In this document: piece by piece, positions 1 to 53,406 of the stretch
Numbering within the stretch: the first letter of the stretch is position 1
Layout: each line of letters begins with the position of its first letter
Source of the DNA: Nocardioidaceae bacterium
Lineage (GTDB): Bacteria > Actinomycetota > Actinomycetes > Propionibacteriales > Nocardioidaceae
Direction of reading: 5' to 3'
Assembly: GCA_030447585.1 (NCBI GenBank)
Contig: JAUJOO010000011.1
Location: forward strand, 45,960-99,529
Length of the DNA: 53,570 bases
Made by a program: the position numbers and the translations under genes
The notes under the pieces: model-generated
The model's database searches: none
What the model was told of the DNA's origin: nothing
What the model saw: the letters and a program-made list of their open reading frames with translations, nothing else

Positions 1-85
1 ACGATACCCGCCGGTCCCCCTGCTTACACATCAGGCTTCCGCAGTTCGGGGCTCTTTCCGGACCCTCGCCGAGCTCAGGCAGCCG

Positions 86-1183
86 TCAACCTGCTTGCCC
101 CTCTGACCACCCGCCGTACGAGCCGATGAGCTGAACTCCACCACCAGGCTCGGCGGTCACCTCACCACAGACCCAGGAGTCAATGCCGTCGTCGCGCAGC
201 AAAGCGACAGCATCGTCGGCGTGCACCGCGGCAACCACGGCGACCATGCCGACGCCCATGTTCAGCGTCTGCTCCAGGTCACGCTCGTCGACCCGGCCGA
301 CGGCCTGCACGAGGCTGAAGATCGGAGGGGGGGTCCACGTCGACCGCGACACGACTGCGCTGACTGAGCCGGGAAGCACCCTGGCGAGGTTGGCCGCCAG
401 ACCGCCGCCGGTGATGTGCGACATGGCGTGGGTGCCGGTGCGCCGAGCGAGCGCCAGGCACGGCAGCGCGTAGATCCTGGTGGGCTCGAGCAACTCCTCC
501 CCCAGCGTGCGGCCGAGCTCTTGGACCTGGCGGTCAAGGGACCATGCCGCCTGACGCAGGAGCACATGGCGAACGAGTGCGTAGCCGTTGGAGTGCAGGC
601 CCGACGAACCCATGGCGATCAGTACGTCGCCCGGCTGGACCCGCTCGGCACCGAGCACCGCCTCAGCCTCAACCACGCCGGTGGTGGAGCCGGCCACGTC
701 GTACTCGTCCGGCTCCAGCAGGCCCGGGTGCTCCGCGGTCTCACCGCCCAGCAAGGCGCAGCCCGCCACGACGCACGCCTCGGCGATCCCCTTGACGATC
801 GCCGCAATGCGTTCGGGGACGACGCTGCCGCAGGCGATGTAGTCGGTCAGGAAAAGCGGCTCAGCCCCGCACACCACCAGGTCGTCGACGAGCATCCCGA
901 CCAGGTCGAAGCCGATCGTGTCGTGCTTGTCGAGGGCCGAGGCGATGGCGACCTTGGTGCCTACGCCGTCGGCACTGGTAGCGAGCAACGGCCGACGGTA
1001 GTGGCGCAGGGCCGAGGCGTCGAAGAGGCCGGCGAACCCGCCGATACCCCCGACCACTTCTGGTCGCCGCGCCTTGTCGACCCACTGCTTCATCAGCGCG
1101 ACGGCGCGCTCACCGGCCTCGATCGAGACACCTGCAGCGGCGTACGCCGACCCGCCGCCGGGGCGGGCGGCTGCCTCAGCCAC
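86..1183 (-). CDS. purM: phosphoribosylformylglycinamidine cyclo-ligase (AIR synthetase)
   Basis: PurM makes aminoimidazole ribotide from FGAM with ATP in de novo purine synthesis, in the cytosol. The 365-residue product has the expected length and the family landmarks in order: an N-terminal SYAAAGV-type start, a TSADGVGTK nucleotide-binding segment (about residue 69), DDLVVCGAEPLFLTDYIA (about 100), LGGETAEHPG (about 144), GLHSNGYALVR (about 195) and HITGGGLAANL (about 256). The start is a GTG 18 bp after the purF stop, so the two are almost certainly co-transcribed. No frameshift is seen. The identification is secure. Confidence 0.97.
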   Translation of the reverse strand: MAEAAARPGGGSAYAAAGVSIEAGERAVALMKQWVDKARRPEVVGGIGGFAGLFDASALRHYRRPLLATSADGVGTKVAIASALDKHDTIGFDLVGMLVDDLVVCGAEPLFLTDYIACGSVVPERIAAIVKGIAEACVVAGCALLGGETAEHPGLLEPDEYDVAGSTTGVVEAEAVLGAERVQPGDVLIAMGSSGLHSNGYALVRHVLLRQAAWSLDRQVQELGRTLGEELLEPTRIYALPCLALARRTGTHAMSHITGGGLAANLARVLPGSVSAVVSRSTWTPPPIFSLVQAVGRVDERDLEQTLNMGVGMVAVVAAVHADDAVALLRDDGIDSWVCGEVTAEPGGGVQLIGSYGGWSEGQAG

Positions 1184-1201
1184 GCGCGACCGTCCCGCCG
1201 G

Positions 1202-2761
1202 TCAAGGCCTACTCAGCGCATCCGCCGCGCCACCGCCGGCGAGGGCCGCTGACAAGCCGTCTGGGCCCAACGGCGCGTCCAGCTTCGGCTCGAGCAGGTG
1301 CTTGCCGAGGAAGCGAGGCTCCGGCAGCTCCACCGGGTAGACACCGTCGAAGCAGGCCCGGCACAGGTCGTTCTTCGACACCTGGCTGGCTGCCACCAGA
1401 CCGTCGAGTGAGACATAAGCCAACGAGTCCGCGCCGATAGACCGGCGGATCTCGTCAGTGCTCATGCCGTTGGCGATGAGTTCGGCCCGGGTCGCGAAGT
1501 CGATCCCGTAGAAACAGGGCCACTTGACGGGCGGGCTGGCGATCCGCACGTGCACCTCACGCGCTCCGGCCTCGCGCAGCATGCGCACCTGGGCCCGCTG
1601 GGTGTTGCCTCGCACGATCGAGTCGTCGACGACTACCAGCCGCTTGCCCTCGATGACGTCGCGCAGGGCGTTGAGCTTCAGCCGGATGCCGAGCTGCCGG
1701 ATGGTGTTGCTTGGCTGGATGAAGGTCCGGCCGACGTAGGAGTTCTTCACAAAGCCTTGGCCGTAGGGGATCTTGCTCTCCTCGGCGTACCCGATGGCCG
1801 CCGGCGTCCCGGACTCCGGGACTGGGATCACAAGGTCGGCGTCGACAGGGAACTCCCGCGCCAGCGTCCTGCCGATCTCGGCACGCACCGTGTGCACCCG
1901 CTGACCGCTGATGAGGGTGTCGGGGCGGGCGAGGTAGACGAACTCGAACAAGCAACCCTTGGGCTCGGCCGCCGCGAAACGCCGGCTGCGCAGGCCGTCC
2001 TCGTCAATCGCGATGAGCTCACCGGGCTGCACCTCGCGAATGAAGGACGCACCAACGATGTCGAGCGCCGCTGTCTCCGACGCGACCACCCAGCCGCGCT
2101 CGAGCCGGCCGAGGACCAATGGCCTGATCCCTTGCGGGTCGCGGGCGGCGTACAGCGCGCCTTGGTCCATGAACACGAGGCAGAACGCGCCGTGCAGCGT
2201 TGGCAACACCTCCAGCGCCGCCTGCTCGACCGGCCGGTCGGGATAAGCCGCGAGCAGCGCGGTGACGAGGTCGGTGTCCGTCGACGCCTCGGTGGCCCGC
2301 AACTGCTGGGTCGGTACGTCGAGTTGGCCATTGGTCATCGCCAGCTCGTCGACCCGGCGGGCCAGGTCACCGGTGTTGGTGAGGTTGCCGTTGTGGGCCA
2401 GGGCTATCGAGCCGGCGGGTGTGGATCGGAACGTCGGTTGGGCGTTCTGCCAGACGCTCGAACCGGTGGTGGAGTAGCGGGAGTGGCCGACCGCCACGTG
2501 GCCGTTCAGCGAGGCGAGGGTGGACTCGTCGAAGACCTGGGACACCAGGCCCATGTCCTTGTAGACGAGGATCTGTCGACCGTTCGCGACCGCGATGCCC
2601 GCCGACTCCTGCCCCCGGTGCTGCAAGGCGTAAAGCCCGAAGTACGTCAGCTTGGCGACGTCCTCACCGGGCGCCCAGACACCGAAGACGCCACAGGCAT
2701 CTTGCGGTCCGAGTTCGTGCGGATCAAGGTCAGAAGTGAGCCGTCCGTCGCCGCGAGCCAC
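1202..2761 (-). CDS. purF: amidophosphoribosyltransferase
   Basis: PurF catalyses the first committed step of purine synthesis, PRPP plus glutamine to phosphoribosylamine. The 519-residue protein has a short leader before DACGVFGVWAP, whose Cys (about residue 23) becomes the N-terminal nucleophile after leader removal in this family. An N-terminal glutaminase domain follows (LQHRGQESAGIA, HNGNLTN). The phosphoribosyltransferase half carries the PRPP loop VVVDDSIVRGNT (about residue 374) and Cys residues late in the chain (RACFDGVYP) that fit the Fe-S type. The start is GTG. It lies directly upstream of purM, in the order purL, SCP-like, purF, purM usual for actinobacteria. Confidence 0.97.
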   Translation of the reverse strand: MARGDGRLTSDLDPHELGPQDACGVFGVWAPGEDVAKLTYFGLYALQHRGQESAGIAVANGRQILVYKDMGLVSQVFDESTLASLNGHVAVGHSRYSTTGSSVWQNAQPTFRSTPAGSIALAHNGNLTNTGDLARRVDELAMTNGQLDVPTQQLRATEASTDTDLVTALLAAYPDRPVEQAALEVLPTLHGAFCLVFMDQGALYAARDPQGIRPLVLGRLERGWVVASETAALDIVGASFIREVQPGELIAIDEDGLRSRRFAAAEPKGCLFEFVYLARPDTLISGQRVHTVRAEIGRTLAREFPVDADLVIPVPESGTPAAIGYAEESKIPYGQGFVKNSYVGRTFIQPSNTIRQLGIRLKLNALRDVIEGKRLVVVDDSIVRGNTQRAQVRMLREAGAREVHVRIASPPVKWPCFYGIDFATRAELIANGMSTDEIRRSIGADSLAYVSLDGLVAASQVSKNDLCRACFDGVYPVELPEPRFLGKHLLEPKLDAPLGPDGLSAALAGGGAADALSRP

Positions 2762-2770
2762 TGACGCAGT

Positions 2771-4111
2771 CTACGTACTGTCGGCAAGCTTCTGGAGCAG
2801 CAGCGCCTCGGCGAGGCACACCCGCTCGAACTCCGCCAGGTGCAGCCCCTCGTTCGCACCATGCGCCCGGGTGTCGGGGTCCTCGACGCCGGTCACCAGG
2901 ATCGCTGCGGCAGGGAACATCTCAGCGAAGGCGGCAATGAAGGGGATTGACCCACCGACGCCGATGTCGACGGGCGCCGTGCCGTCCCACGCCTCCGCGA
3001 AGGCGGCCCGCGCGGCGTCGTACGCCGGGCCGTTGGCGTCGACAGTGAACGGTTGGCCGACGTCCCCGTCGATGACCGTCACCTGGACGCCCCAGGGGGC
3101 GGACTCGACCAGATGCTGACGCAGCTGGTCGAGCGCTTGACGCGCGTCGTCGCCGGGTGCCACGCGGAGGCTGATCTTGGCGCGGGCTGCGGGGATGAGC
3201 GTGTTGCTGGCGTCGGCGACCCGGGTGGCGTCGAGGGCGATGACCGAGATCGCGGGTTTAGCCCAAAGGCGATCGACGACCGAGCCGGTGCCGATCAGCT
3301 CGACTCCGTCAGCGATACCGGCGTCAGCTCGCAGCCGCTGCTCGGCGTACTCCAGGTCGGCGGCCTTGCCGACGGTCAGTCCGTCGACGGCGACATCACC
3401 GTTGTCGTCGTGCAACGTCGCGATCAGTCGGCACAGCGCGGTCAGTGCGTCGGTGGCGACGCCTCCCCACATACCGGAGTGCACGGCGTGGTCGAGAGCC
3501 CGGACCTCCACCACACAGTCGGCGAGGCCGCGCAGCGACGTGGTCAGGGCTGGAGTGCCAATCTCCCAGTTCGTCGAGTCGGCGATCACGATGACGTCAC
3601 TGGCGAGCTTGTCTCGGTACGTCGACAGCAGCGCCTCGAGGGTGGGCGAGCCGACCTCCTCCTCCCCTTCGACGAAGACGGTCACCCCGACGGGCAGGTT
3701 GTCGCCGTACGCGCGGATCGCCGCCAGATGGGCGGCGATGCCTGCCTTGTCGTCGGCAGCGCCTCGGGCGAACAGGCGGTCACCGCGTTCGGTCGGCTCG
3801 AACGGTTCCGACGCCCACGTCGATCGGTCGCCCTCGGGCTGCACATCGTGATGCGCGTACAGGAGTACGGTTGGTGCTCCCGGCGGCGCCGGTCTGCGCG
3901 CAAGCACGGCCGGTCTCCCCCCGTCAGCCGAGACGATCTCGACCTCGAGCCCGGCGTCGCGGAAGAGGCCAGCCGTGGCCTCCGCTGACCGGCGTACCTC
4001 GTGGGCTCGGGCCGGGTCTGCGCTCACGGACTGGACGCGCACCAGGTCTTCAAGGTCGGCGCGAACCCCCGGCAACACCTGCGCCAAAGCGGCGCGCAGA
4101 TCATGGGTCAT
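2771..4111 (-). CDS. M20 family dipeptidase / metallopeptidase
   Basis: This is a zinc-dependent peptidase of the M20 family that probably cleaves di- or small peptides in the cytosol. The ATG at 4111 gives about 446 residues. Metal-ligand segments are visible: LLYAHHDVQP (first His/Asp), RGAADDKAG (bridging Asp), EGEEEVGSP (catalytic Glu pair), ADST (Asp) and RAHGANEGL (last His) near the C-terminus. A dimerisation-type insert lies in the middle (HSGMWGGVATDA). It sits between purF and the SCP-like gene on the same strand, 9 bp upstream of purF, so it is probably in the purine operon by position although its function is unrelated. The exact substrate cannot be read from the sequence. Confidence 0.92.
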   Translation of the reverse strand: MTHDLRAALAQVLPGVRADLEDLVRVQSVSADPARAHEVRRSAEATAGLFRDAGLEVEIVSADGGRPAVLARRPAPPGAPTVLLYAHHDVQPEGDRSTWASEPFEPTERGDRLFARGAADDKAGIAAHLAAIRAYGDNLPVGVTVFVEGEEEVGSPTLEALLSTYRDKLASDVIVIADSTNWEIGTPALTTSLRGLADCVVEVRALDHAVHSGMWGGVATDALTALCRLIATLHDDNGDVAVDGLTVGKAADLEYAEQRLRADAGIADGVELIGTGSVVDRLWAKPAISVIALDATRVADASNTLIPAARAKISLRVAPGDDARQALDQLRQHLVESAPWGVQVTVIDGDVGQPFTVDANGPAYDAARAAFAEAWDGTAPVDIGVGGSIPFIAAFAEMFPAAAILVTGVEDPDTRAHGANEGLHLAEFERVCLAEALLLQKLADST

Positions 4112-4256
4112 GTCCGCGATGCTAGCCGCGCTCCCCGTTGCTATCCCCGCCCTCCTCGGGGTTTGCCATGCGTACGTGTCAGTTCGCATGTACGCATGCC
4201 AGATCCGCCGTGTAGAGCCGTGGTTTGCTGTGCAGACCTTCCAATGCGCAGCTTTG

Positions 4257-4631
4257 TCAGACCAGCGGGAGGTGGTCGGACAGGTTGGACCGCTCCCCCG
4301 ACGCGTGTACGGCGCCGTGGCCGACCGCGTCGGCGAAGGTGAGCTGGCCTCGGGCCAGCGCGATCCAGGTCATCGCGTCGACCTCGACCACCGCTGGAGG
4401 GGTGCCGCGGGTGTGGCGGGTTCCCTCGACGCACTGGACCGCTGCGTACGGCGGAACTCGCACTTCCACGCTCTTGCCGGGTGCGCGAGCGGCCAGCACC
4501 GCGAGGAAGTGTTTGACCGCGGCCCGGACGTCAGGCCCGTCGGCTTGCCCACCAGAGCGCACCGCTTCGTCGATCCGGTTCAAGACCTCGCTCAACTCGG
4601 GGGCCGCCAACTGACGAAGTTTCCCGGCCAT
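4257..4631 (-). CDS. sterol carrier family protein (SCP2-like, purine-locus type)
   Basis: This is a small protein of about 124 residues. Its pattern (MAGKLRQLAAPEL start, then VRVPPYAAVQCVEG and RGTPPAVVEVDAMTWIALARG) matches the sterol-carrier/SCP2-fold family regularly found between purL and purF in actinobacteria. The biochemical role of this family is not established, and a lipid-binding role is inferred from the fold name only. I chose the ATG at 4631 rather than one three codons upstream because family members start close to this motif. It is intact and precedes the M20 gene in the same direction. Confidence 0.8.
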   Translation of the reverse strand: MAGKLRQLAAPELSEVLNRIDEAVRSGGQADGPDVRAAVKHFLAVLAARAPGKSVEVRVPPYAAVQCVEGTRHTRGTPPAVVEVDAMTWIALARGQLTFADAVGHGAVHASGERSNLSDHLPLV

Positions 4632-4696
4632 GCAAGCCACCCTAGGTCCGGAGCACCCCCTCCGGTCACCGCGCCCGTCGAGACGTCACATGGGGG

Positions 4697-4732
4697 CCGA
4701 CAGGTCGGCAGGAACCGACACGTCGGCAGGAA
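4697..4732. repeat. 18-bp direct tandem repeat downstream of the purL remnant
   Basis: Two adjacent 18-bp units, CCGACAGGTCGGCAGGAA and CCGACACGTCGGCAGGAA, differ at one position. Each contains a small dyad (CCGAC..GTCGG). They lie in the 138-bp gap between the end of purL and the SCP-like gene. They could be a transcription attenuator, a protein-binding site or a slippage product. Nothing in the sequence decides between these. Confidence 0.6.
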
Positions 4733-4769
4733 ACGGGCCGTTGGTGGTTCTCGGCGAAAAAAGCGGCGG

Positions 4770-5095
4770 TCAGCTCGTGTCGAGGGCAGCTGGCAGGGTT
4801 GCCGACCAGGCCGCACGCAGTTCGGCGAGCGGGATGCGGAACTCACCGTGTACGTCGAGGACCGCCTCTTCGCCGCGACTCTTGGTGAGACCAATCCGCG
4901 CGTGCGGGAAGTCGCGCGCCGTACACAGGTCGGTGAAACGGGCTTCCTGGTCAGCCGGCACGGCGACGATGACCCGAGCCGTCGACTCGCTGAACAGCGC
5001 GATGAACGGGTCGAGGCATGTGGGCAGGCTGATCGCGGCGCCGACGCCGTGCCGCAAGCACGACTCCACCAGCGTCGAGGCGCTGGCCGCGGCGT
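4770..5095 (-). pseudogene. purL: purL C-terminal fragment (FGAM synthase II)
   Basis: Only the last ~105 residues of PurL are present. TLVESCLRHGVGA, DPFIALFSESTARVIVAVP and FTDLCTARDFPHARIG match the glutamine-independent C-terminal part of FGAM synthase subunit II, ending LAELRAAWSATLP. PurL is normally about 740 residues or more, so over 85% is missing. Homology stops abruptly near 5080-5100. Beyond that point the DNA codes, on the other strand, for the C-terminal part of an unrelated LuxR regulator. PurL is essential for purine prototrophy, so either a full copy exists elsewhere or this junction is an assembly or deletion breakpoint. Confidence 0.85.
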
Positions 5096-5895
5096 ACGCC
5101 GGGCCGGCCCACCAAGCCCGAGAATCGGCCGAGGCAGGCCTCACCCAGGCAACGGAGCAGGGAGTCGTACCAGCACAGCTGCGGCTGCGCTGGGTGCTTG
5201 GGCTCGCGAACCTGCTCGATGCCGACCCACGTGGCGCCTGGGCCGTCTTGGAGCCGGCACTGACCACGATGGTCGAGAAAGGGGTCGGGGAGCCGGGATT
5301 CGTGCCGGCTGTTCCGGATGCCGTCACCGCCCTCGCGGCCCTGGGCGACCTCCCGAGGGCGAAGCAGGTAGCCGCCATGTTGGACCGTTCCGCCGCAGCC
5401 GGCCACCGGTGGGCTGCTCCGGCTCAGGCCTACTGCAAAGGCCTTGTCCTGTTGGCAGCCGGAGCTCCAGACGCAGGCGCGACCGAGCTGATCGAGGCGA
5501 GGGACTCCTTCGAGTCAATCGGGTTCAAGTTCGACGCTGCCCGTTCCACCTTGGAGGCGGGTGGGGCGCTTCGGCGCTCCGGTCAGCGGGGCGCGGCTCA
5601 CGCAATGGTCAGCGACGCCGTACGACGCTTCGCCGCCATGGGAGCGAGCGCCTGGGCGGAGCGCGCCGAGTCCGAACTGGCTCGCGCCGGCGGGCGGCGT
5701 ACCGGACAGACACTCACCGCTGGCGAAGAACAGGTCGCCGCTCTGGCTGCTGCCGGTCGGACGAACCGCGAGATAGCGGCCCAGCTCTTCGTGTCTGTTG
5801 CGACCGTCGAAGCCAATCTCACCCGCGCCTACCGCAAGCTTGGGGTAAGCTCGCGCAGCCAGCTCACCAGGCTACGTACAATGGCCGCTGAGTAG
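5096..5895 (+). pseudogene. LuxR-family regulator, C-terminal part only
   Basis: The reading frame open through 5895 encodes helical repeat-like sequence (RLRWVLGLANLLDADPRGAW, ALGDLPRAKQVAAML) followed by a clear LuxR-type helix-turn-helix: LTAGEEQVAALAAAGRTNRE then IAAQLFVSVATVEANLTRAY. This is the end of a large LAL-type or TPR-containing LuxR regulator. The N-terminal sensor or ATPase region is absent, and the frame runs without a sensible start into the purL remnant at about 5090. It may be untranslated. The HTH call is firm; the subfamily is a guess. Confidence 0.8.
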
Positions 5896-8191: not shown

Positions 8192-9816
8192 GTGCCCTCC
8201 GACTCTGCGGTCAAGGACCCGCTGAAGACCTACCGGCGCAAGCGGGACTTCTCGCGGACTTCGGAACCGTCGGGCGACACCTCTGCCGCCGAGGTCGGTG
8301 GAGGCGGTTCCCGGCGGTTCGTGGTGCAGCGTCACCGTGCGCGCCGGCTGCACTATGACTTCCGCCTGGAGGTCGACGGCGTGCTGGTCAGCTGGGCAGT
8401 GCCGAAGGGGCCGACTCTGGATCCGGACGTCCGGCGGGCGGCCTTCCACGTCGAGGACCACCCACTGGAGTACTTCGACTTCGAGGGCGTCATTCCGGCG
8501 GGCGAGTACGGCGGCGGTGACGTGATCGTCTGGGACGCGGGTAGCTGGGAGCCGCACCAGGCCGGCAAGTCTGCCGATCCGGGCCGCGCGATCGCCGCCG
8601 GCGAGTTGCATCTCGACATGTGGGGAGAAAAGCTCAGCGGCCGGTTCGTGCTCGTCCGGACGAGCACGCCGGCGTCCGGCAAGGACGAGTGGCTGCTGCT
8701 GCACAAGCACGATGAGTACGCCGTCAAGGGCTGGAACGCAGAGGATCACCCGCAGTCGGTGCTGAGTGGGCGGACGAACGAGGAGGTGAAGACCGACCCA
8801 GACCGGATGTGGCGCTCAGACCTTCCCGCGGCCCGTGCCTCGATCGCGCTCAAGGCACCTGTGGTCGAGACGGTCGGCGCCGAGGAGCTGGCTGAGCTCG
8901 ACACCCTGGCAGCTGGGGGACCTGGTGGGTGTACGGCCGCGAGCTGAAGGTCACCAACCTCGACAAGGTCCTGTTCCCGGCGCGCCCCGGCGAGGGCCCG
9001 GTCACCAAGCGAGACCTCGTACGGTACGCGGCCCAGATCGCACCCACGCTGCTGCCGTATCTCAGCCGCCGAGCTCTCAACTTGCACCGCTACCCCAACG
9101 GTGCACAGGCGAAGGGGTTCTGGCACAAGGAAATCCCCCGGCACGCACCGGACTGGCTCCCGCGGTGGCACAACCCCGAGGCAGCGGCTGACGAGACGCA
9201 GAACTATCTGGTCGTCGACGAACCCGCCGCCTTGGTGTGGGCTGCCAACTTCGGCGCCCTGGAGTGGCATGCCTGGACGTCGCGGGTCGACCAGCCTCGA
9301 CGCCCGACCTATGCGCTCGTCGACCTCGACCCTGGGGACACGACCAGCTGGGACGACCTGCTGGTCCTGGCCCGCCTCCACCGCACCGCGTTCGAACACA
9401 TGGGCGTCGTCGCCCGCCCCAAGGTCACCGGCCGACGTGGCATCCAGATCTGGGTGCCCATCGCTCCCGGCCCCGACGTCCGCGAGACCCGCGCCTGGGT
9501 CGAACGGCTGTCCAAGAGCGTCGGAGCCGTCGTCCCCGAGCTGGTCAGCTGGAAATGGAACGTGAACGAGCGTGCAGGTCTGGCCCGGCTCGACTACACC
9601 CAGAACGCGATCAACAAGACCCTCGTCGCCCCCTACAGCCCGCGACCTGCCCCCGGCGCTCCGGTCTCGGCTCCGATCGAGTGGGACGAGCTGGACGACC
9701 CGGACCTGTCGCCCGACGGTTTCACCATCCGCACCATCGTTCAGCGGATCGCCGAGAAAGGCGACCTGTTCGCAGAGGTGCTGCAGCACGCCCAACGATT
9801 GCCGGCTCTGAAGTAG
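8192..9816 (+). CDS. LigD-like 3'-phosphoesterase-polymerase fusion without ligase domain (one frameshift)
   Basis: An N-terminal LigD phosphoesterase domain (FVVQRHRARRLHYDFRLEVD, then SWAVPKGP, HPLEYFDFEGVIP, GEYGGGDVIVWD) is followed by a LigD-type primase-polymerase domain (LKVTNLDKVLFPA, metal motif VDLDPGD, TGRRGIQIW, RLDYTQNAINKTL). The frame breaks at about 8920 in a run of five G. A sixth G gives AAGGTWWVYGREL and joins the domains into one ~541-residue protein. There is no ATP-dependent ligase domain and no ku gene nearby. LigD polymerases fill or extend ends during nonhomologous end joining. GTG start at 8192. Confidence 0.9.
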
Positions 9817-12072: not shown

Positions 12073-12209
12073 GTCGTCAGTCTGCCGCTGGGTACAAAGA
12101 AGCCTCGATGGGATCCACTGTCTGGCTGCGCCCACCCTGTCGCCTTGCGCCAACCGCTCACTTCAGTGCGTCCAGGAAAGACACCGGGCACTGCCGGACA
12201 GGTGACATC

Positions 12210-41771: not shown

Positions 41772-42185
41772 TCACTGGTGGCAGTCGCCTGGGTCGACAC
41801 GCCCGCGCTTGCGGTTGCGCTCGTGGTACGACGCGCGGGTCATCTTCGACGCGCGGCTGGTGTCGTCCCAGGTGGCCTGTTGACGCATCCCGGTGAGGTC
41901 GGACTGTTCCTGCTGCAAGTCCGCGAGCAGCTCTGACGGAGCAACCGACAACGCCTGCCCGATATTGTCTTCTGCGTCCGCGAAGAGGCCGACCGAAGCC
42001 TGGCGATCCCCCTGCTCCAGCGCCTCTGACGCGCGACGCTTCGCCTGCTGTGCCTCCTGGAAGAGCACCTCGCTTTGCACCGTTGGGTCGACGACGCGAC
42101 CGGCGGCCTCGTCACCAGGCACCACGTTCACCTGCACGGGCAGGGTGACGACCTGCTGGTGTCGTCCCAGCTGGCGACGCTCGAG
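41772..42185 (-). pseudogene. vWA-domain protein, C-terminal fragment
   Basis: QQVVTLPVQVNVVPGDEAAG, DPTVQSEVLFQEAQQAKRRA and LSVAPSELLADLQQEQSDLT, with a basic end, match the conserved C-terminal tail of actinobacterial von Willebrand factor A proteins (VNVVPGD.AAGRV.DP). The vWA domain itself is missing, and an in-frame stop lies about 45 nt upstream of the first recognisable residues. It is divergent from the AbrB antitoxin. Confidence 0.65.
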
Positions 42186-42289
42186 GGTCCTTCAACAGCT
42201 TGCGCTGCCGATGTCTTGGGACTCCTTGACTACGTCGGCGCGACGGTGATGGACGCCGACATTCAGGAGCTCGCATGCCTACTGCCTGG

Positions 42290-42301
42290 TATCGTTGTGG
42301 C
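42290..42301 (+). promoter_or_regulatory. leaderless -10 box of AbrB/PIN operon
   Basis: TATCGT followed by 6 nt (TGTGGC) and then the antitoxin ATG at 42302. The spacing and surrounding bases mirror the promoter of the MazEF-like pair. Confidence 0.65.
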
Positions 42302-42535
42302 ATGCGAGCAACCATTGACAAGGCAGGACGGCTGGTTATCCCCAAGGAACTCCGGGACCGGCTAGGGCTCTCCCCTGGCGTGGTGGATGTGCACGCGGAT
42401 GGGGCGGGCCTGCGAGTCGAGCCGGTCGCGGTGGGCGATCTCTCCACCAGGAAGGGACGTCTCGTGGTTGCCAGCAGCGGCGCGACGCTGGGTCCCGACG
42501 ACGTACAGGTGCTGCGTGACCTCGACCAGCGGTAG
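42302..42535 (+). CDS. AbrB/SpoVT-type swapped-hairpin antitoxin
   Basis: The ~77-residue protein has MRATIDKAGRLVIPKELRDR then LGLSPGVVDVHADGAGLRVE, the AbrB-like beta-hairpin DNA-binding fold. A toxin-binding tail ends VLRDLDQR. The ATG at 42302 is preceded by a TANNNT box at 6 nt, implying a leaderless transcript. It is 9 bp upstream of the PIN toxin. Confidence 0.9.
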   Translation: MRATIDKAGRLVIPKELRDRLGLSPGVVDVHADGAGLRVEPVAVGDLSTRKGRLVVASSGATLGPDDVQVLRDLDQR

Positions 42536-42544
42536 CCCTCCCTC

Positions 42545-42947
42545 ATGTCTGCTGGACACCAGCGTTGCCATTGCTTTCTTGGTCAGTGATCACTCGCAAC
42601 ACGATCTGGTGTTTGAGGCCCTGGCCGATCGTGACCTTGGTCTTGCCGGACACGCCACCTTCGAGACGTTCTCTGTGCTGACGAGGTTGCCGGCGGCGAG
42701 CCGCTTGGGCCCCGCCACCGCGGTCGAACTCATTGAGTCCAACTTTCCGCACACGCGATACCTGGGTCCCGGGGCCACCGGGCGCCTGCTCGCCTCACTT
42801 CCCCGGCGCAACATCGCCGGTGGGTCTGTCTATGACGCCCTCGTTGGCGCGGCCGCGGCTGAGCACGGCTTGCCTCTTGTGACCAGCGATCTTCGGGCCT
42901 TGGGGACCTACCGCCAGCTCGGCGTCGATGTAGAGCCGCTGCTCTAG
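42545..42947 (+). CDS. PIN-domain toxin (VapC-like) with unclear start
   Basis: CLLDTSVAIAFLVSDHSQHD (first Asp), AGHATFETFSVLTRLPAASR (Glu), GGSVYDALVGAAAAEHGLPL (Asp) and VTSDLRALGTYRQLG (Asp) give all four PIN acidic positions. The ATG at 42545 is one base out of frame with LLDTSV; an in-frame GTG at 42516 inside the antitoxin gene is the alternative start. A one-base error just after the ATG (giving M-LLDTSV) would fit the family better. It is an RNase toxin partner of the AbrB antitoxin. Confidence 0.87.
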
Positions 42948-42949
42948 CG

Positions 42950-43246
42950 GTTCTCCGGCTTCATTGATCGCCTCGTGACTCAGAGATTTCCGAGAGGAGT
43001 CGCGAGCAAGGCTGCCACCTGCGGTCTCGTCGGGAAAGGTGTGCTCGACGCCCGGAACGGTGGCGAAGGCACGATCAGCCGAGACGATCGTTGCCGCTCC
43101 GATGTCTCGTGCCACCGCCGCGAGAACCGCGCCGAAGCATCCGATGTCGGGATGTTGGCGCCAGATCTCAAGGCTCGCCCGGTGCTCGCTTCCCACCGCA
43201 TAGACCAGCACCGTCGGCCCAGCTTGGCGAACCGGAGCCGGCTCAT
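42950..43246 (-). pseudogene. PIN-domain remnant lacking its middle section
   Basis: TVLVYAVGSEH, the N-terminal strand of PIN toxins, runs directly into EIWRQHPDIGCFGAVLAAVA then RDIGAATIVSADRAFATVPG, which is the C-terminal third. About 55 residues that normally lie between, including the second acidic residue, are absent. An ATG at 43246 overlaps the recD stop (ATGA) but needs one added C to enter this frame. No stop follows until inside the convergent PIN gene. Probably inactive. Confidence 0.65.
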
Positions 43247-45112
43247 GGCTGGCTGCTCGCCCGATTGAGGCCGCTGGCTCGGTTGATGCGCCGCTCGACC
43301 GCCGCCCGGACAGCCGCGTCGGTGCCGATGATCCGCACGTGCTGCTTGGCGCGCGTCACCGCCGTGTAGAGCAACTCCCGCGTCAGTAACGGCGACCCTG
43401 CCGGCGGCAGCACGATGCTGACCTTGTCGAACTGGCTGCCTTGGCTGCGATGGATCGACATCGCGTGCACGGTCTGTACGTCGCCCAGTCGGCTCGGCGC
43501 GAGCAGGTCGAGCACCCCGTCGCGCCAGAAGGCGGCTCGCGGTTGACCGTCGGAGCTCACGATCACGCCGGTGTCGCCGTTGAACAACCGCAGCTGGTAG
43601 TCGTTCGACCTGACGAGCAGCGGCCGGCCGACGTACCAGAACCCGTCGCTGGCGTAGCCGTCCACGGCGTCGCTGAGCCAGTCCTGCACCTGCTTGCTCC
43701 AGTGCGCCACTCCGTACAGTCCCTCCCGGTGGGCGCACAGCACGCGGTGCTTCCCGAGCGCCGCTAGGGCATTCTCCGCGTGGCCGTTGCGGGCAGCGGC
43801 GATGAGCGTCCGGCCGGCCTGGCGTACGTCGGCCCGCAGCGTCGCGAGGTCACTCTCCGCTGATGCGATGTCGAGGTCTATGTACTCGATGTCACCGTGA
43901 CCTCCGGCCAGCAACCCGAGCACCTCGTCGCTGTGGCCGTGCCGGATGGCCTCGGCGAGCTGCTGGATCTGCCCGCCGAAGCGGTGCACCTTCGTCAGGC
44001 TGACCATCCCGACGGTTCGCGCCGCGTGCTGCTCCTCAACCGACAGGTCTTCGAGGTCACGGCCCACGTGCGCTGTGTCCACCGCGAGCGGTACGACGCC
44101 CGGCGGCGCCGCGCGCTGCACCAGGTCGCCGAGCACCGCGCCGACCTCGATCGACGACAGCTGGTTGGGGTCGCCGACGAGGACCAGCCGGCACGTCGGC
44201 CGCAGCGCCTCGATGAGCCGTGACATCAGCGTGAGCGACACCATCGAGGCCTCGTCGACGACGACCACGTCGTAGGGCAACCGGTTGTCGCGGTTGTACC
44301 AGAACCGGGTGCGCTCGCCGTGCCGGTTGCCGAGCAGGCGGTGCAGTGTCGATGCGCTGAGCCTTCCGATGCGCGCTTGGTCTGGCAGCGCGAAGTCGGC
44401 CACCTCGCTTGCTGCCGCCGTCGTCATCCGCGCCGCGGCCTTGCCGTCCGTGCGGCGAGGGCGATCCGGAGCGCGCCATCTGCGAGGTTCTGCAGGACGG
44501 CGAGCAGCCGCGCCACCGTCGTCGTCTTGCCCGTGCCCGGCCCGCCCGCGACGATGCTGAACCTGCGGTGGGCGGCGACGTACGCCGCGAGCCGCTGGCG
44601 GTCCGCTTGCTCTGACCGGAAGAGCCGTCGCAGCGCGGCGTCCAGCCGCTCCGGGTCGGGCGTCAGCGGTTGTGCGAGCACCGCCGCGTCGACGTGCGCC
44701 GCGACGACCCGCTCCTGCCGCCAGTAGCGGTCGAGGTAGAGCAGTCCGTCGACCCACCGCAGCGGTCGGTCGGGAGGTCCGTGCGTGCCCACCGCCACCA
44801 GCTGTGCTCTACAGCGGCGACCCAGTCGTCAGCGTCCGGCCACGGAAGGGCATCCGTCGACCGTCAGTCCGTCGGTGGCCACCCGTTGCGCAACGTCGCC
44901 CAGCTCCAACACCACCGAGCCGTGGCGTACGGCGCGCACGGCCAGCGCCGCCGCCAGCAGCACCCGCTCGTCGTTCTCCCCGCACAACCGCTGCAACCGC
45001 CGGGCGACGTGCACGTCGGCACTGGTCAGCACGCCGGCTCGGTTGAACTCCGGAGCCAACTGCCCCTCAGCCCGTAGCGCACGCTCCACCGACTCCCGAC
45101 CACGGCCGTCAC
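43243..45112 (-). CDS. recD: exodeoxyribonuclease V alpha subunit (several frameshifts)
   Basis: GTG at 45112 overlaps the recB stop (GTGA). One added G gives VTAVVGESVERALRAEGQ; then FNRAGVLTSADVHVARRLQR, LAAALAVRAVRHGSVVLE, Walker A IVAGGPGTGKTTTVARLLAV, RIGRLSASTLHRLLGNR, Walker B VVVVDEASMVSLTLMSRLIE, LVGDPNQLSSIEVGAVLGDL and C-terminal VHAMSIHRSQGSQFDKVSIV then ELLYTAVTRAKQHVRIIG. Breaks lie near 45090, 44850-44810 and 44460. RecD is the 5'-3' helicase of RecBCD, which processes double-strand ends. Confidence 0.92.
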
Positions 45113-48100
45113 GACGACGCCCTCGGTGCAGCAGGTCCGACAGGTCGGTGACCAAGGCCGCCGGCGGTGACCACGAGAAGACGCCGTACGGCACGCCGTC
45201 GGCCACCGGAGTCTCCGGCCCGCACATGCCGCGCAGGAAGAGGTAGAGCACCCCACCGAGATGCTGCTCGGGGTCGTAGCCGGGCTGCCGCCAGCGCAGG
45301 TAGCGGTGCAGCGCCACGCAGTACAGCAGCGCCTGCAGAGGGTAGTGCGTGCCGCATCTCGCGCGCCATCGCCTCGGGCCGATAGTCGTACGCCGTGAGC
45401 TGATCGCCCCTGCCGAGCCAGTTCGTCTTGTAGTCGACGACGAGGTAGCGCGGCGTCCCGGTGCCGGCGTCCCGCACCCGCAGAACCGCGTCGATGCTGC
45501 CGGCCAGATAGCCGCGCAGGCTGCGACCGGCGATCAGCGGCACGTCGAGGTCGTCGGCGTACCCCTGGAGGAGGTCGCCGGGCGGGAGGTGGCGGCGTAC
45601 CAGAGCGGCGATCTGGCGCACCTTGCCTCACCAGTCGGGACGTCGCCACCGACCAGTGGCAGCTCGAAGTCGAGCTCGTCAAGCCGATCGGACTTCGCGA
45701 TGTCGACCAGGCGCCGGTTGGCAGCCAGCGGCCCGAGCGGCGTATGCAGCGACGGCAGCAACGCCTGCGCCAGCTCGGCCGGCGGTGTGGCGCCGAACCG
45801 CTCAGAGTCCTCCGCGGCGCCGCCTCCAGCGCCGCGGACAGGTCGGGAGTCGTGAAGTCGGTGCGCTCGGAGCACCGTGTGCACGAGCGTTCCGAACGCC
45901 GCCCCCGACGGCAAGTCCGCCATCGGCGACACCGGGCGGCCCGTGACCGGCGGGCGTCGCCTCCACCTCGGGCCGGTCGGGGGGCTCGTCGGTGATGCCG
46001 GGCGTCTCCGGCTCGCTCACCGCCACCGTCGCACCGGACGCCTCGTGCAGCCCCGCCGTGATCCCGGTGTACGACGTCCGCCGCCACGCCGTGTCGAGCC
46101 GGCGGTCGAAGTCGCGCACCGACATGTCGACCGCCGACCCGTCCGGAGCGGTCAACGGCGCCGTCGCCACCGGACCCGTGACCTCGACGCTCACCAGCCC
46201 ACCCGATGTGGCGGCCAGCGAAGCGAAGCGCTTGCGGGTGCCGTTCTCGTCGGGCAGCGGGACCGAGTCGGGCACCGCTCCCCCGTCGGACCGGTCACCG
46301 AAGAGCAGCCGGTGCAGCGGGGCGCCCGGCGTGTTGTTGGTAGGCGCCCAATGCGCGACGACCTGGAGACCGCGCGCGGGTGAGCGCGACGTACGCCAGC
46401 CGCAGCGACTCCCCCGCCTCCTCCTTGCCGTGGCGTGCCTCGGCGCTCGGCGTACCACGGGCCGGTCGACCCGCCCACGTCGAGCACGCGCTCGTCGTCC
46501 TCGTCGTGCGCGACCGCATCTGCTCCGGATTGCCGCCCACCCAGCGGTCCCAGAGGAACGGCGCGTAGACGACCGGGAACTCCAGCCCTTGGCCCGCCAG
46601 ATCGTCATGACCTGCACCGCCTTGGCGTCGGATTCGAGCCGCCGGCTGCGTTCCTCGTCGATGTCGCCGGCCGCTTCGGCGATCCGGTGCTGGAGCCACT
46701 GCACCAGCGACGACGCCGCCGCCCTCGGTGCGGGCCCGGTGCAGCGCCTGCCCGATGTGTCGCAGGTCGGTGAGGTCGCGCTCACCGTCGTCGCGGCCAG
46801 CAGCTCGCTCCGCCAGCCCGGTGGCGGTCGCCGCCTCCATCAGCGCGGCCACGCCCGTGTCGGTGAGCGTCTCCGCCCAGCGACGCAGCTGGGCGCCGAG
46901 CTCCTCCTGGCGTGGCCCGGTGGCCGTGGCCAAGCTGACGGCGGTCCAGCCGATGAAGCTGGTGAGCGCGGCGTTGCGGGCGAGCCCGGTGCGCTGCGGC
47001 TGCTCCAGCGCGGTGAGCAGGTCGAGCCACTCCGCGCCGCGTCGGAGGCGAAGACCGAGCTGGTCGCCGAGCACGACGGGTACGTCGACCGCGGCCAGCG
47101 CGTCGCGTACGGCGGCGCCGGTGTCGTTGCGCTGCACCAGCACGGCCTGCGTCGGCCGCCTTCCAGCGGGCGGCGTACGCCGTCGCGCTCGACGAGCTCG
47201 GCGCCCGACGCCAGCAGCCGGACGATGTCGGCGGCGACGTCTCGCGCGACGAACGGGCGAACGTTGGCCACCGTGAGCTTGGCCGAGGTCGACTCGTCGA
47301 ACTCTTCGCGGGCACTCGGCGCACGCGCACCGGCGCGCTGACGGGAGCACTGAGCAGGGAGGGCTCGCGGTGCGCGGCGTTGACGTCGTACAGCCGGATG
47401 CGGGGGTCGCCGAGCGCGGCGTCGCCGAGCAGGTGCCGCAACCCGCACCAGCGGCTGGTCGCTGCGCCAGTTGGTGCCGAGCGTCGCCTCGCCCAACGCG
47501 GCCCGCTTGGCCTGCAGGTAGGTGACGATGTCGGCGCCGCGGAAGGCGTAGATCGCTCGCTTCGGGTCACCGACGAGGATCAGGGTGCGGTGGCCGTGGA
47601 AAGCACGCTCCAGGATGTCCCACTGCAGCGGATCGGTGTCTTGGAACTCATCGACCAGCACGAGGATCTGGTAGCGGGCGCGGATGCGCTGACAGGCCTC
47701 CTCGCCGGTGTCCAGCATGAGCGCCGCGCGCAGGTAGGTCAGCAGGTCGTTGTAGTCCATCACCCGCATGGCTCGCTTCCGCTTCGCCACCTCGTCGCGC
47801 GCGCGCTTGGCGAACTCGTAGCGATGCGGGGGCCCCGGCTCGGCGTCGTGCGGCTCGAAAGCCGGCGGGCCGGATCGCCGACGCGCGCCGGCAGCCAACC
47901 CAGCTGCCGCGCCGAACGGCATGGCGTCGGGCGGCAGCGGGCTGTCGTCGCGGCCGTAGTCGGCGACGTAGAGGTCGGTGGCGACGTCAGTGACCAGGTC
48001 GCCGGTGGCTTCGGCGAACGTGACGTCGGAGTCGAGGTCGGCGGCGATGCCCAGCCCGGCCAGCATCTGCGAGCAGAAGCCGTGTGGTGGCGATCGTGGC

Positions 48101-48457
48101 CGGCGTCGAAGTCGGCGACCGCGCTGGCCAGCCGCCGGTGCCGTCGGCGTACCTCGTCGTCGGGCGCGTCGGCCAGTAGGCGCACGACGTCGTCGGTGGA
48201 GCCGCGGGCGGCGGGGTCCGTGAGCGCAGCCGTCACCGCGGTCCGTCGTTCGCGCACTCGCTCGCGGAGCTCGGCCGTGGCAGCCCGGCCGAACGTCACG
48301 AGCATCATCTCGTCCATCCGCGCTGGCCCTCGGCGAGATAGCGCGCAGCCAGGCCGGCGATCGTGTAGGTCTTGCCGGTGCCGGCGCTGGCCTCCAGCAC
48401 CGTCGTCCGTCCGGCAGCGGCTGGTCGGCGCGAAGACGGGAAATCTGCCTCCGTCAT
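45109..48457 (-). CDS. recB: exodeoxyribonuclease V beta subunit (multiple frameshifts)
   Basis: ATG at 48457 overlaps the recC stop (ATGA). Walker A TVLEASAGTGKTYTIAGLAA, then MLVTFGRAATAELRERVR, Walker B ILVLVDEFQDTDPLQWDILE, LILVGDPKRAIYAFRGADIV, ATLGTNWRSDQPLV, AVQVMTIWRAKG and LEFPVVYAPFLWDRW, RLAYVALTRA, and the C-terminal nuclease motif RYLVVDYKTNWLG, ending HRYLRWRQPGYDPEQHLGGV. The frame changes at least eight times. Repaired length is ~1115 residues, normal for the family. It is the 3'-5' helicase and nuclease of RecBCD. Confidence 0.93.
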
Positions 48458-51400
48458 TCGATGACCTCCGCCTCGAGCAGCGGTGTCCAGATCGTGCGGG
48501 CCAGTTGCCCAGCGGGTGCGGCTCGTCGGCGTAGTCGCGTCGGGGTACGCCGGCTCCGCCAGCAGGTCGCCCAGCGTCGTCAGCCGTACTCGCCGGTGGT
48601 CGCCGTCGCCGAACTCACCGTAGGCGTTCTTTCCTGGCCCTTGTTCTCCCACCCCGGGCCGGCGAGGAAGCCCGCCGCGTTGCGGGAGCACGGGTGCCAG
48701 CGGCGCTTGTCGGCATAGGCGCATTGCCTTCTTCTGGCGGCACTGGAAGCGGCCGGGTCAGGCCGAGCCGGTGGAGGGCGACCAGTGCGTCGAGATGTTG
48801 CCGGCGACGTCGGCGGACGGGACCCGTCAAGAACGACCCGATCACCGGATTCTTCCTGTCCCCCGGCCGACTGCGACGGCGCTCCACGTGCGTGCCGGGG
48901 TCGTGTGCGCAGAGGGCGAGCAACTGCAGCCAGGCTCGGATGCGGTGCTTGGCTGACAGCCGCGAGTACTGATGCGCACGACGCGGTCGCCGTACACGCG
49001 CGGCACTGACCCGTCGAGGCGGGTGCCCGACGGCAGAAAGATCGAAACGTCCGCGGTGTTGGGCTCGCCCGCGCGCAGGCCGGTGCTCTTGTCGAGCACG
49101 GCGGCGACGTTGCCGGCGATCGGCTGGCGGACTGAGCCGCCGAGCGTGCCCGGTGGGAGCTCGCCGCGCAGCCGCTCCACCTGCTGGGCGTCGTCGACGG
49201 CCAGGTCGGCGAGGCCGGCTCGCAGCAGCCGGTCACCGACGGCCCACTCCTCCAGCTTGTTGGGGCAGACGGGGGATGGCGCGTCGGACGGCTCGTCCTC
49301 CTCGTCGGCGGTGCGCAGCTCGAAGCCGCTCGCGGCAAAAAGGCGCGGACCGGGTGCTCGAAGAACCGGGATCAGCTTCTCGAGCTCGACCGCGTCGGTC
49401 TGCTGAAGCTCGGGGCAGCGGTCCGTCGAGGAAGGGCCGCGGCTCACTTTGGCCAAGCTGTCGGGCGACGCTGCCGGCGTACGACGCCTTGTCGAAGCTG
49501 AACGGAGCGCTCGCCGCCAGCTCATCGACCGTGAAGTTACGTGGGTCGAACGGCTGCAGCGGATGGCGCACCAGCACTCGGTCCCGGGCCCGGCACCGCG
49601 GCACGCTGGCCGTGCGATCGAGTACGTCGAGCAGCTCGCCGAGCGGGACCGCGGGCGGTCGCTCGGCACCGGTGCGTTCGTCGGCGCCGGTGTAGAGGAT
49701 GACGAGGCGCTCCTTGGCCGCCAAGATCGCGTCGAGGAACAGCTCCTCGCCGGTCCTCCGACCGCCGGTCGCGCTCCCACCCGCGGCGAGCGGGCGAGGA
49801 TGTCGTCACCGTCGATGCTGTTGCATATGGAACACGCCGTCGTCGAGGCCGAGCAGGCAGACGACGCGATGCGGCACCGACCGCATCGGCACCATCGTGC
49901 ACACGGTGAGGTGGCCGGTGCGGAAGTTGGCGCGGGTGGGGCGTCCGCGCAGGCGGTCGCGCAGCAGCGCCCCGTACGTCGGACAAGGTGCGCTCCAGCC
50001 GGGCCGGTTGGGCCAAGGCCAGCGCGTCGGCGGAGCCGTTGCGCCGGCGAGGGTCGCCTTCGCCTGTGTCACCTGCCAGGCGTCCGGGTGGCTCACGATC
50101 GATGAAGCGGTCGACGGCTCCGGTGAGCGCTTGCACCATCCTCGGCGGCTGCTCCTGCCGGAGTGCCGCGAGGGTGGCGTCGAGCCGGTCGAGCAGCTCG
50201 GCGAGCCGGCCGGCGAGGTCGATCTCGGTGCTGTCAATGTCGTCGAGCGGGAGGGCGGTGCCGACCAGGCGGAGGTCCTCCTCATCCATCGCGACGCCGG
50301 CGAGCAGGCGGTCGAGCCCGTGGGACCAGGTGTTCTGCCCGACGCCGATGAGGCCGTAGCCGGCACGGGCCGTGTCGAGCTCCCAGCGGACGCCGGCGCG
50401 GCGTACCCAGTCACCGATACGTTCCAGCGCCTCCTCGTCGAAGCGGAATCGGCGTCGCACCGGCTGCATGGCCGCGAAGTCAAGGATCTCCGAAGCGGTG
50501 AGGCGCGAGTCGGCGAGCTCCAACAGCCTGGCGACGACATCGAGCACCGGGTTGGTCTGTCGCGGTGCGCGAACGGTCGGCCAGCCGGAAGGTGAGCCGG
50601 TGTCCGGGTGCATCTGCGCCGCGGCCGTCGGATCGTCGGAGTCGTCGAGGACTTCGAGCCTTCAGGCTGGCGCTGATCAGCGGCGCGTAGGCGTCGATGT
50701 CGGGGCACATGATGATGATGTCGCGCAGCTCGAGCGTGGGGTCGTCGGAGAGCAGGCCCAGCAACACCTCGCGCAGCACCTCGACTTGCCGGTGGCGGCC
50801 GTGGCAGGCGTGGACTTGCACAGTCATGTCGTCGTCTGCCAAGGCGTGCCAGCCGGGCAGCGCCCGGTCGGCACGCAGGTCGTCTTGCAGCGCATCGAGC
50901 AGCGTGCCGCTGGCCGTTGTCGTGATGGGCAGGTGTTCGTCGGCCGCCGGGCTGGTGTGCGCATGAAGTCGAACGTACATCTCCCGCGCGTCCCGCCCGA
51001 GCGACCGCAGCAGCGGGTGAGCTGCCACTTCGGAGCACGGGTCAGTGCGTCGCGTCGGGTCCTACGGTGGTCCGAGTCGAGACGGTGGTCGAGCTCCTCG
51101 GTGGTCGACTGTCGAGGCCATCCGCAAGCCGCCGCCACAAGCCGTCGGACGGAAACGGCAACCACAGGTGTACATCGCGATGCACAGCCAACGCGTCCAG
51201 TACCACCAGTTGAGCGGTTGTGAGCCTGGCCGCCCGAAGATCGACAACCGCTCGGGGAGTCGACCAGGTCCGGCTCCTGACGCAGTCGCTGGCATGCCGG
51301 GGCAGGCCAACCGCTCCGCCGGACTCGCGGTGTCGATGCGCCCCCGCACGCGACGCCAGCCCGCGCGCCGGCGAGGGTCGCCTTCGCCTGGGTGACCTGC

Positions 51401-53253
51401 CAGGCGTCGCGCGGGCTCACGTCGGTGAAGAGGTCGACGGCTTCGGTGAGCGCTTGCACCCATCCTTCGAGCGGCTGCTCCTGTCGGAGCGCGGCGAGAG
51501 TGGCGTCGAGCCGGTCGAGCAGCTCGGCCAGTCGTCCGACGAGGTCGATCTCGCTGCTGTCGACGTCATCCAGCGGGAGCGCGCTGCCGACCAGGCGGAG
51601 GTCCTCCTCGTCCATCGTCACCCCGGTGAGCAGACGGTCCAGCCCGTGCGCCCAGGTGTTCTGCCCGACGCCGGCGAGGCCGTAGCCGGCCCGCGCCTGT
51701 GCGTCGAGCCCCCAGCGGACGCCAGCGCGGCGTACCCAGTCACCGATGCGTTCGAGTGCCTCCTCGTCGAACCGGAATCGGCGCCGCACCGGCTGCATCG
51801 CCGCCAGGTCGAGAACTTCTGAAGCGGTCAGTCGGGAGTCAGCGAGCTCCAGCAACCTGGCGACGACTTCCAGGACCGGGTTGGTCTGCCGCAACGAGCG
51901 GTCGGCCAGCCGGAAGGTGAGCCGGTGCCCTGGGTGGACCTGCGACGCTGCCGCCGGGTCATCTGCGTCGTCGAGCACCTCGATGCCCAGGCTGGCGCTG
52001 ATCAGCGGGGCGTAGGCGTCGATGTCGGGGCACATGACGATGATGTCGCGCAGCTCGAGCGTCGAGTCGTCGGAGAGCAGCCCGAGCAGCACCTCGCGGA
52101 GCACCTCGACCTGCCGGTGGCGGCCGTGGCAGGCGTGCACTTGCACCGTCGTGTCGCCGTCCGCCATGACGTGTGAGCCGCCGGGTGGCCGGTCGGCACG
52201 CAGGTCGTCTTGCAGTGCGTCGAGCAGCGAGCCGCTGCCGGCGGTCGGTGCGGGCAGATACTCGTCCGTCGCCGGAGTGATGTGTGCGCGAAGCCGAACG
52301 CTCATTTCCCGCGCATCCCGCCCGAGCGACCGCAGCAGCGGGTGAGCCGCCACTTCGGCGGTCGGGTCAGTGCGTCGCGTCGGTACGGCGCCTACGGTGG
52401 TCGAGACTGTCGAGACCACCTCGCCGGTGGTCGAGCCGGCTCCCTCGGTGGTCGCGCCTGTCGAGGCCATCTCGCCCAGCCGCCGCCACAGCCCGTCAGA
52501 CGGAAAAGGGAGCCACAGGTGTACGTCGCGATGCACAGCCAACGCGTCGAGCACCACCAGTTGCGCGGTGGTCAGCCTTGTCGGCCCGAAGATCGACAGC
52601 CGCTCGGGAAGATCCGCGAGGTCCGGCTTTTCCCGCAGTCGTCTGCATGCGGGGTGGAGCCGCTCCGCCGGGCTGTCCGTCCCGATGTGCTGCCTCAGTC
52701 GTCGCCACAGCTCAGGTTGCCAGGCCTGGTCGGCGTCGACCCGGCCGCCGTACCCGTCGGTGTCCTGGCCGGCTCGCCAGTCCGTGATCATGGTCGGGCG
52801 CTCGGCGGCGTACGCCGTGAAGAGGCCGGTGAGCTTCTGCGCAACCGCCATGCGCCGGCCACGGTTGACGCCGCCCTCGACGAGCCCGAGGTGCCGGCCG
52901 AGGGTGCGGCACCAGTCTTCGCCGGCGCAGTCGTCGATGACCTCGAGCAGCGCCCAGGGCAACCGTTCCTCCGCCCACGGATCGTCGTCTGCGCGGACTC
53001 CAGTGGCCGCGACCAGCACCTCACGGACGAGTCGGCTGGGAGGACGGAAGTCGACATTTGCGCAGACCCCGTCCGCCTCGCCGCTTGCTGCTCCCAGCGA
53101 CGCCGACAACGATTGCGCGATCCAGCGCTCCACGCCCTTCGACGGCACCGACACGATGTCGCGCACGAAGGGGTCGGCAGGTAGGTCGCTGAGCGCGTCG
53201 GCGAGCCCTGCCACCAAGCCATCCGCTCGCTCGGCCCGGTGAACATTCAGCAT
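48454..53253 (-). CDS. recC: exodeoxyribonuclease V gamma subunit with internal tandem duplication and frameshifts
   Basis: ATG at 53253. The N-terminal part is intact: LADALSDLPADPFVRDIVSV, KGVERWIAQSLSASLGA, CANVDFRPPSRLVREVL, LSIFGPTRLTTAQLVVLDAL. Mid-protein motifs (CHGRHRQVEVLREVLLGLL, MQPVRRRFRFDEEALERIGD) appear twice because of a ~1.3 kb duplication. The C-terminal hallmarks CLLGLDDGVF and VRHPLQPFDPRNF are present. The span is ~4.8 kb; without one repeat it would be ~3.45 kb (~1150 residues), the normal size. RecC holds the complex together and scans for Chi. As written it cannot be translated whole. Confidence 0.92.
50041..51345 (-). repeat. recC tandem repeat, downstream copy (degraded)
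   Basis: This copy matches 51365-52690 at an offset of about 1324-1349 bp. It covers the segment from SPAERL through AWQVTQAKATLAG. Its reading frame is broken several times (for example LNWWYWTRWLCIAMYTC where the other copy has LTTAQLVVLDALAVHRD), and it has many substitutions. Confidence 0.88.
51365..52690 (-). repeat. recC tandem repeat, upstream copy (in frame)
   Basis: This is the in-frame copy of the duplicated recC segment, continuous with the N-terminal coding part. It contains a Thr/Gly-rich insert (STGATTEGAGSTTGEVVSTV) encoded by GGTGGTCGAG-type repeats. It is about 24 bp longer than the downstream copy because of that insert. Confidence 0.88.
52396..52470. repeat. GGTGGTCGAG-type palindromic repeat inside recC
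   Basis: GGTGGTCGAGACTGTCGAGACCACC (25 bp, arms GGTGGTC/GACCACC; shown here as one element) is followed by GGTGGTCGAGCC and GGTGGTCGCGCCTGTCGAGG variants. A degenerate version lies at 51067-51120 in the other copy. It is translated in frame as a low-complexity linker. Confidence 0.75.
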
Positions 53254-53406
53254 GCCGTCGCCCCATCTGCCCGCTTCATGTGGTGACGATACGACGCGAT
53301 CCCGACACTTTGGAGAGTCCGCCCGGTCGCTGCCTTACCACCGGCTTCGGCGCTCCGACTCATTCACCAGCGAGTGCGGGCTTCCCGCTGACCGGGGTGA
53401 CTTGTG

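Follow-up and report, generated by a model that had tools for sequence, protein, structure and literature searches.

Is a bacterium whose purL gene is reduced to its last part, and set against a regulator gene that is likewise incomplete, unable to make purines, or was the cut made somewhere other than in a cell? The question is raised by contig JAUJOO010000011.1 (C38 below) of the Nocardioidaceae assembly GCA_030447585.1, a bin of 3.1 Mb in 55 contigs that is rated 88.6% complete and 1.24% contaminated. The window is the whole stretch of DNA that was analyzed, 53,570 nucleotides at C38:45960-99529, and positions refer to it unless another contig is named. The bin's own genus is called g1 here, with relatives G001 and G003, and g12 is the genus of G014 and G039. 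A first-pass annotation of the window had the C-terminal halves of purL and a luxR gene meeting at about 5090, offered a deletion between divergent neighbors or an assembly join as the cause, expected purine auxotrophy, and proposed a genome search for a complete purL and for the missing 5' part of luxR. The features are collected in Table 1.

Table 1. Features of the window that bear on the purL/luxR join, in order of position.
Feature	Position	Strand	Remarks
purM	86..1183	-	TIGR00878 406 bits, above cut-off; 84% amino acid identity to G014, 77% to C24 copy
purF	1202..2761	-	TIGR01134 519 bits, above cut-off; 98% amino acid identity to G014
Mosaic tract, purF and part of M20	1441..3200	no strand	96-100% to G039; flanking windows 55-92%
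M20-type dipeptidase-like gene	2771..4108	-	NF005914 633 bits, next NF006053 dipeptidase; 91% amino acid identity to G014, 75% to C24 copy
SCP_3 (bacterial SCP orthologue) gene	4257..4640	-	PF17844 E = 1.5 × 10−39
purL 3' fragment with its own stop codon	4770..5074	-	about the last 98 of 765 residues
purL fragment/luxR fragment join	5073..5074	no strand	2 shared bases
LAL-type (presumed) LuxR regulator, C-terminal fragment	5073..5895	+	PF00196 GerE HTH, E = 5.3 × 10−14; ATPase part missing
recC 3' part-recB-recD block	42147..51358	-	92.4% nucleotide identity to G014:C6:273565-282736
Second join, two recC copies fused	51358..51365	no strand	50041-51358 repeats 51365-52707, 83%
recC 5' part	51365..53296	-	80% nucleotide identity to G014; TIGR01450 positions 1-608 of 1063

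The search for a complete purL succeeds on another contig, C24, where an intact gene at 338872-341073 has no stops and scores 858.9 bits against a cut-off of 525.75. It shares C24 with purC, purQ, purF, and purM. The first two precede it (families confirmed), and the genes between or beside them are sugar-kinase-like, indigoidine-synthase-A-like (psuG-type), and acyl-CoA-ligase-like, the last named by resemblance. On its 3' side come about 8 kb of other genes, then SCP3, M20, purF, and a complete purM. The interval between purL and SCP3, C24 at about 341.1-349.0 kb, includes a methyltransferase, a PHP-domain protein, and an aldose epimerase. Because of the intact purL on C24, the broken purL of the window says nothing on auxotrophy of the bin, and with the neighboring pur genes also in place the prediction of a purine auxotroph fails. 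The purF of C24, at 350836-352383, is 85% identical to the window purF, so the bin holds two full purF genes, and it holds two purM genes as well. A third purF match, on C23, is weak, with 33% identity over residues 22-257.

The window copy of purL is confined to the end of the protein. The minus-strand ORF 4770-5378 matches the PurL model over its last 100 or so positions only (positions 623-722 of 723 in NF002290, E = 4.4 × 10−12, and 621-716 of 718 in TIGR01736), and in the full-length PurL test it scores 24 bits against the curated cut-off of 525.75. It aligns with residues 668-765 of the 765-residue C24 PurL at 66%, and with G039 at 77%. The loss is larger than the N-terminal halves first described, since about the last 13% of PurL and about the last 30% of the regulator are left. 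The purL fragment contains no stop and no frameshift, which is to say that it is undecayed. Its dN/dS of 0.26-0.27 to G014 and G039, compared with 0.45 between those two genomes, is a weak measure at about 100 codons. If it is biological at all, the break in purL must be very recent.

The gene facing purL encodes about the last 275 of about 910 residues of a LuxR regulator which we take to be of the LAL type. The nearest homologue found is at G039 C19:890-1702, with 63% amino acid identity over residues 3-273 of the 275-residue query. It consists of two overlapping frames, about 910 codons together, one with an AAA ATPase domain (AAA_16) and the other with GerE. Open frames of LuxR homologues are mostly about 900-1000 residues. 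Against the relatives' contigs (best 80 of 188) the top match is 39% over residues 42-269, with shorter stretches up to 63%. Of the features expected in a LAL-type regulator, the window fragment has the GerE helix-turn-helix and lacks the N-terminal ATPase, and similarity begins only at the join. The search for the missing 5' part covered C38 and returned nothing, in that 19 LAL homologue pieces gave no match to that contig at the sensitivity used. Those pieces are 639-777 residues long, have lost their first part at the locus edge, and were chosen by their matches within the luxR part.

The join itself was placed from the printed purL sequences of G039 and G014 and the printed luxR sequence of G039, set side by side. 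Identity to purL reaches up to 5074 and identity to luxR starts from 5073. The earlier observation that both homologies stop at one point is correct to within 2 nt, and the point lies at 5073/5074 instead of 5090. The geometry is head-to-head, with the 3' end of purL on the minus strand and the LuxR C-terminus on the plus strand. Beyond the join the ungapped identity to G039 purL is 0.35; the luxR identity before the join is 0.32, in a register that is a few bases off, so the latter figure says little. Reading frames are clean on both sides, and on the plus strand no stop interrupts the frame across antisense purL as far back as an ATG at 4630; resemblance to the G039 regulator begins only at residue 146 (base 5065). 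Because the word shared at the join is only 2 bases, this is not a plain k-mer collapse. An imperfect 22-base inverted pair (82%) straddles the join with arms at 4941-4962 and 5301-5322 and is taken for chance; two other inverted repeat pairs do not have their arms on either side of it.

The DNA on the purL side is a second, partial pur block in the order purM-purF-M20-SCP3-purL'. The block is 86.7% identical to G014 over 4541 bases, compared with 77.7% to G001 over 2583 bases and 77.9% to the C24 copy over 2578 bases, and G039 matches window positions 1-4124 at 90%, in a match that extends to the first base. Quick, protein-based trees with G039 left out (12, 16, and 10 rows for purF, M20, and purM) pair the window with G014, with SH-aLRT values of 100 for purF, 99 for M20, and 96 for purM, and pair C24 with G003 next to G001 at 97, 88, and 96. 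Duplicated single-copy genes of differing lineage, as looked for in a composite contig, are present here as two purF and two purM genes with different tree positions. Divergence from G039 is uneven along the block, with dS of 0.10 in purF, 0.32 in M20, 0.46 in purL', 0.54 in purM, and 0.71 in SCP3, and sliding identity in 160-base steps delimits the mosaic tract of Table 1. We read this unevenness as either a tract of recombination or a mosaic of strains. In purF and M20, dN/dS is 0.07-0.14 versus G014 and G039.

Relatives show what normally stands next to purL. In the purL stretches of 20 relatives (4.4-19 kb; E threshold 10−3) the luxR fragment has no match in any, where three of the 20 have purL running off the contig, those of G003 and G004 starting inside the gene and that of G002 ending inside it. 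SCP3 is downstream of purL within 16 of the 20 stretches, the exceptions being L071, which ends there, L077, L080, and L081, and purQ or purC, where a stretch shows them, is on the 5' side. G014 has purL full-length in one frame, and in G039 the whole gene is present, split at a lone n into two pieces that overlap. The pur locus of G039 is on its contig C8 and the luxR orthologue is on C19, where rplQ flanks it on one side and, beyond one further ORF, truA on the other. A deletion by which divergent neighbors purL and luxR lost their 5' parts at once, leaving a purine auxotroph, would account for the head-to-head geometry, and is nevertheless very improbable given the intact purL in the same bin, a luxR unmatched in the relatives' purL stretches, and purQ or purC occupying the 5' side of purL, an order of genes that already contradicts it. 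Of the two causes first offered, a simple deletion is not supported by the 20 stretches or by the separate contigs of G039, and the assembly join is the one that we favor.

Window positions -6412 to -6001, on the contig left of the lone n that precedes the window, have their match in G014 C6 at 0.8 kb from that of window positions 11177-12084. Because these two places adjoin in G014, the scaffold C38 follows a real locus. A repeat-protein gene at 25514-27456 keeps, with respect to purL', the order and orientation that it has in G014 and G039, at a distance of 20.4 kb in the window, 7.7 kb in G014, and 13.7 kb in G039. The repeat protein (25514-27517) has a weak choice-of-anchor-B match and 87% nucleotide identity to G014, G039, and G004; in G014 as in G039 its gene stands on the 5' side of the pur genes, and there are apparent frameshifts near 26255 and 25755. 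Neither g12 genome has a match to window positions 8.1-11.2 and 12.1-17.9 kb, and some right-hand genes, at 24.6-25.4 and 36.9-37.6 kb, are closer to g1/g2 than to g12. Apart from the pur and recBCD blocks, the window is a patchwork whose best matches, among those listed, are in g1, g2, g12, and other genera. That the whole window is pure contamination by a g12 strain was considered, and is weakened by this patchwork. Two LigD primase-polymerase domain genes are on the contig, at 8929-9816 and 38608-39225. Tetranucleotide correlations overlap and do not separate the window from C24; the short stretch 1-5082 leans to g12 (0.60 versus 0.52), as do 2 of 4 C24 pieces. Among the 20 window proteins from 5980-35687, Pfam finds no transposase or integrase family; the search for a transferred element found no tRNA, and Rfam gave no match at gathering thresholds.

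The quality of the contig can be judged at two other places. The pur block reaches the base before the window, C38:45959, which is a lone n, the other four gaps of C38 being 100 N each. A lone n can be a contig-end join, because the one inside the G039 purL is such a case (C8, L193 14156-17526), with two contig ends and an unmerged 1083-base overlap that is 98% identical. The other place is at the right-hand end, where two recC copies stand head to tail with about 1.3 kb of redundant overlap and both map to the same G014 stretch, and where the 38 kb of G014 C6 compared (255000-293000) contains no such repeat. The RecC match of protein P0004 covers profile positions 1-608 of 1063 and then goes out of frame. 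The block beside it has 196 gap positions in 9290 aligned columns versus G014 and many frameshifts, its recC, recB, and recD matches being split over several frames. The frameshifts of 42147-51358 resemble poorly corrected sequence. We read this second unlikely join as two species' versions of one locus, with a redundant overlap. A redundant join of orthologous sequences, another sign looked for in composite contigs, is thus found at recC and not at purL/luxR. With it a composite contig becomes likely and the purL/luxR join less trustworthy, though not proven false.

The purL/luxR join is, in our assessment, probably an artifact of a composite contig, mis-assembled or mis-binned. A pur-locus piece of about 5.07 kb from a g12 relative, running from purM to the last 13% of purL, would have come to lie at a contig end, and assembly or scaffolding software working on a metagenome-type bin, and not a cell, would have joined it at 5073/5074 to unrelated DNA beginning inside a LAL-type luxR gene. 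The main organism, of g1, would keep its own C24 locus with intact purL and suffer no loss of purine synthesis. This accounts for the intact purL and two full purF genes, for window pur genes that group with G014 when those of C24 group with G003, for a block that runs to a lone n at the contig edge, for a luxR of a kind absent from the 20 purL stretches, for the undecayed state of the purL fragment, and for a recC/recC join with 1.3 kb of redundancy beside a gap-rich block of 9.2 kb in the same contig. Less expected from an artifact are the mere 2 shared bases and the clean frames, a repeat protein that keeps its g12 order and orientation to purL' where chance stitching would not favor it, the real locus that the scaffold follows, the unseparated tetranucleotide composition, and the right-hand genes nearer g1/g2; the purF tract could be natural recombination, and misassembly is, in the part of the GUNC paper that we draw on, relatively rare compared with mis-binning (PMC8201837).

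Several of the same observations would suit a real horizontal acquisition, in which a g1 organism with the C24 pur locus took up a partial g12-like pur block, which end joining at a 2-base microhomology placed within or next to a LAL regulator gene. We consider this unlikely. Two pur copies of different ancestry, clean frames at the microhomology, a scaffold following a real locus, and pur ORFs that are intact and above family cut-offs are as it would have them, and on this reading the purL and luxR fragments would be dead and the extra purF and purM may be expressed. Against it, no second insertion boundary is seen, because the outer edge of the block is the contig end at the lone n; no transposase or integrase family is among the 20 window proteins compared with Pfam, and no tRNA was detected; a search of C38 for the luxR 5' part, at the sensitivity applied, gave nothing; and the contig has another unlikely join. 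It is equally doubtful that in a living g1 bacterium part of the purine pathway is diploid, with the organism's own locus plus an acquired g12-type purF-purM block, a recent recombination tract over purF, and a purL remnant facing a decapitated LAL regulator. More doubtful still is that the window contig is a mis-binned stray from a g12-like organism in which a real rearrangement, replacing purC to purL, broke purL and luxR. The 92% identity to G014 over 9.2 kb, the g12-like pur block with purF and purM duplicated in the bin, and purL' with the repeat protein (25.5-27.5 kb) in g12 order and orientation fit a single g12-like locus that has had purC through most of purL replaced. Yet a broken purL beside a purF and an M20 that remain under constraint is unlikely if there is no other purL, the window is unmatched in both g12 genomes at 8.1-11.2 and 12.1-17.9 kb, and purL is full-length in G014 and all there in G039, in two pieces around the lone n.

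Taken at face value, the locus would give a false prediction of purine auxotrophy and a false pair of pseudogenes. If the join is an artifact, a contamination rating of 1.24% does not keep a bin free of contigs with broken joins and foreign core genes; if it is real, the locus would be a modest example of a pathway partly duplicated through transfer.

Compared with PurL as known (FGAM synthase subunit II; NF002290/TIGR01736), the window gene has the last 98-100 or so residues and the stop codon, and differs in that the other 87% or so of the protein is missing at this site, with the intact copy on C24. Compared with LAL-type LuxR regulators, its partner has the C-terminal region with the GerE helix-turn-helix and differs by the absence of the N-terminal ATPase and most of the middle. 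The contig is also comparable to the chimeric contigs and the redundant contamination that the GUNC paper treats in metagenome bins, and which name misassembly and mis-binning as the principal expected errors in such bins, mis-binning being the commoner (PMC8201837). Fragments of related lineages in one contig or bin, with duplicate core genes, are what the window shares with that description (PMC8201837), and our case for it rests on synteny, trees, and the redundant recC join.
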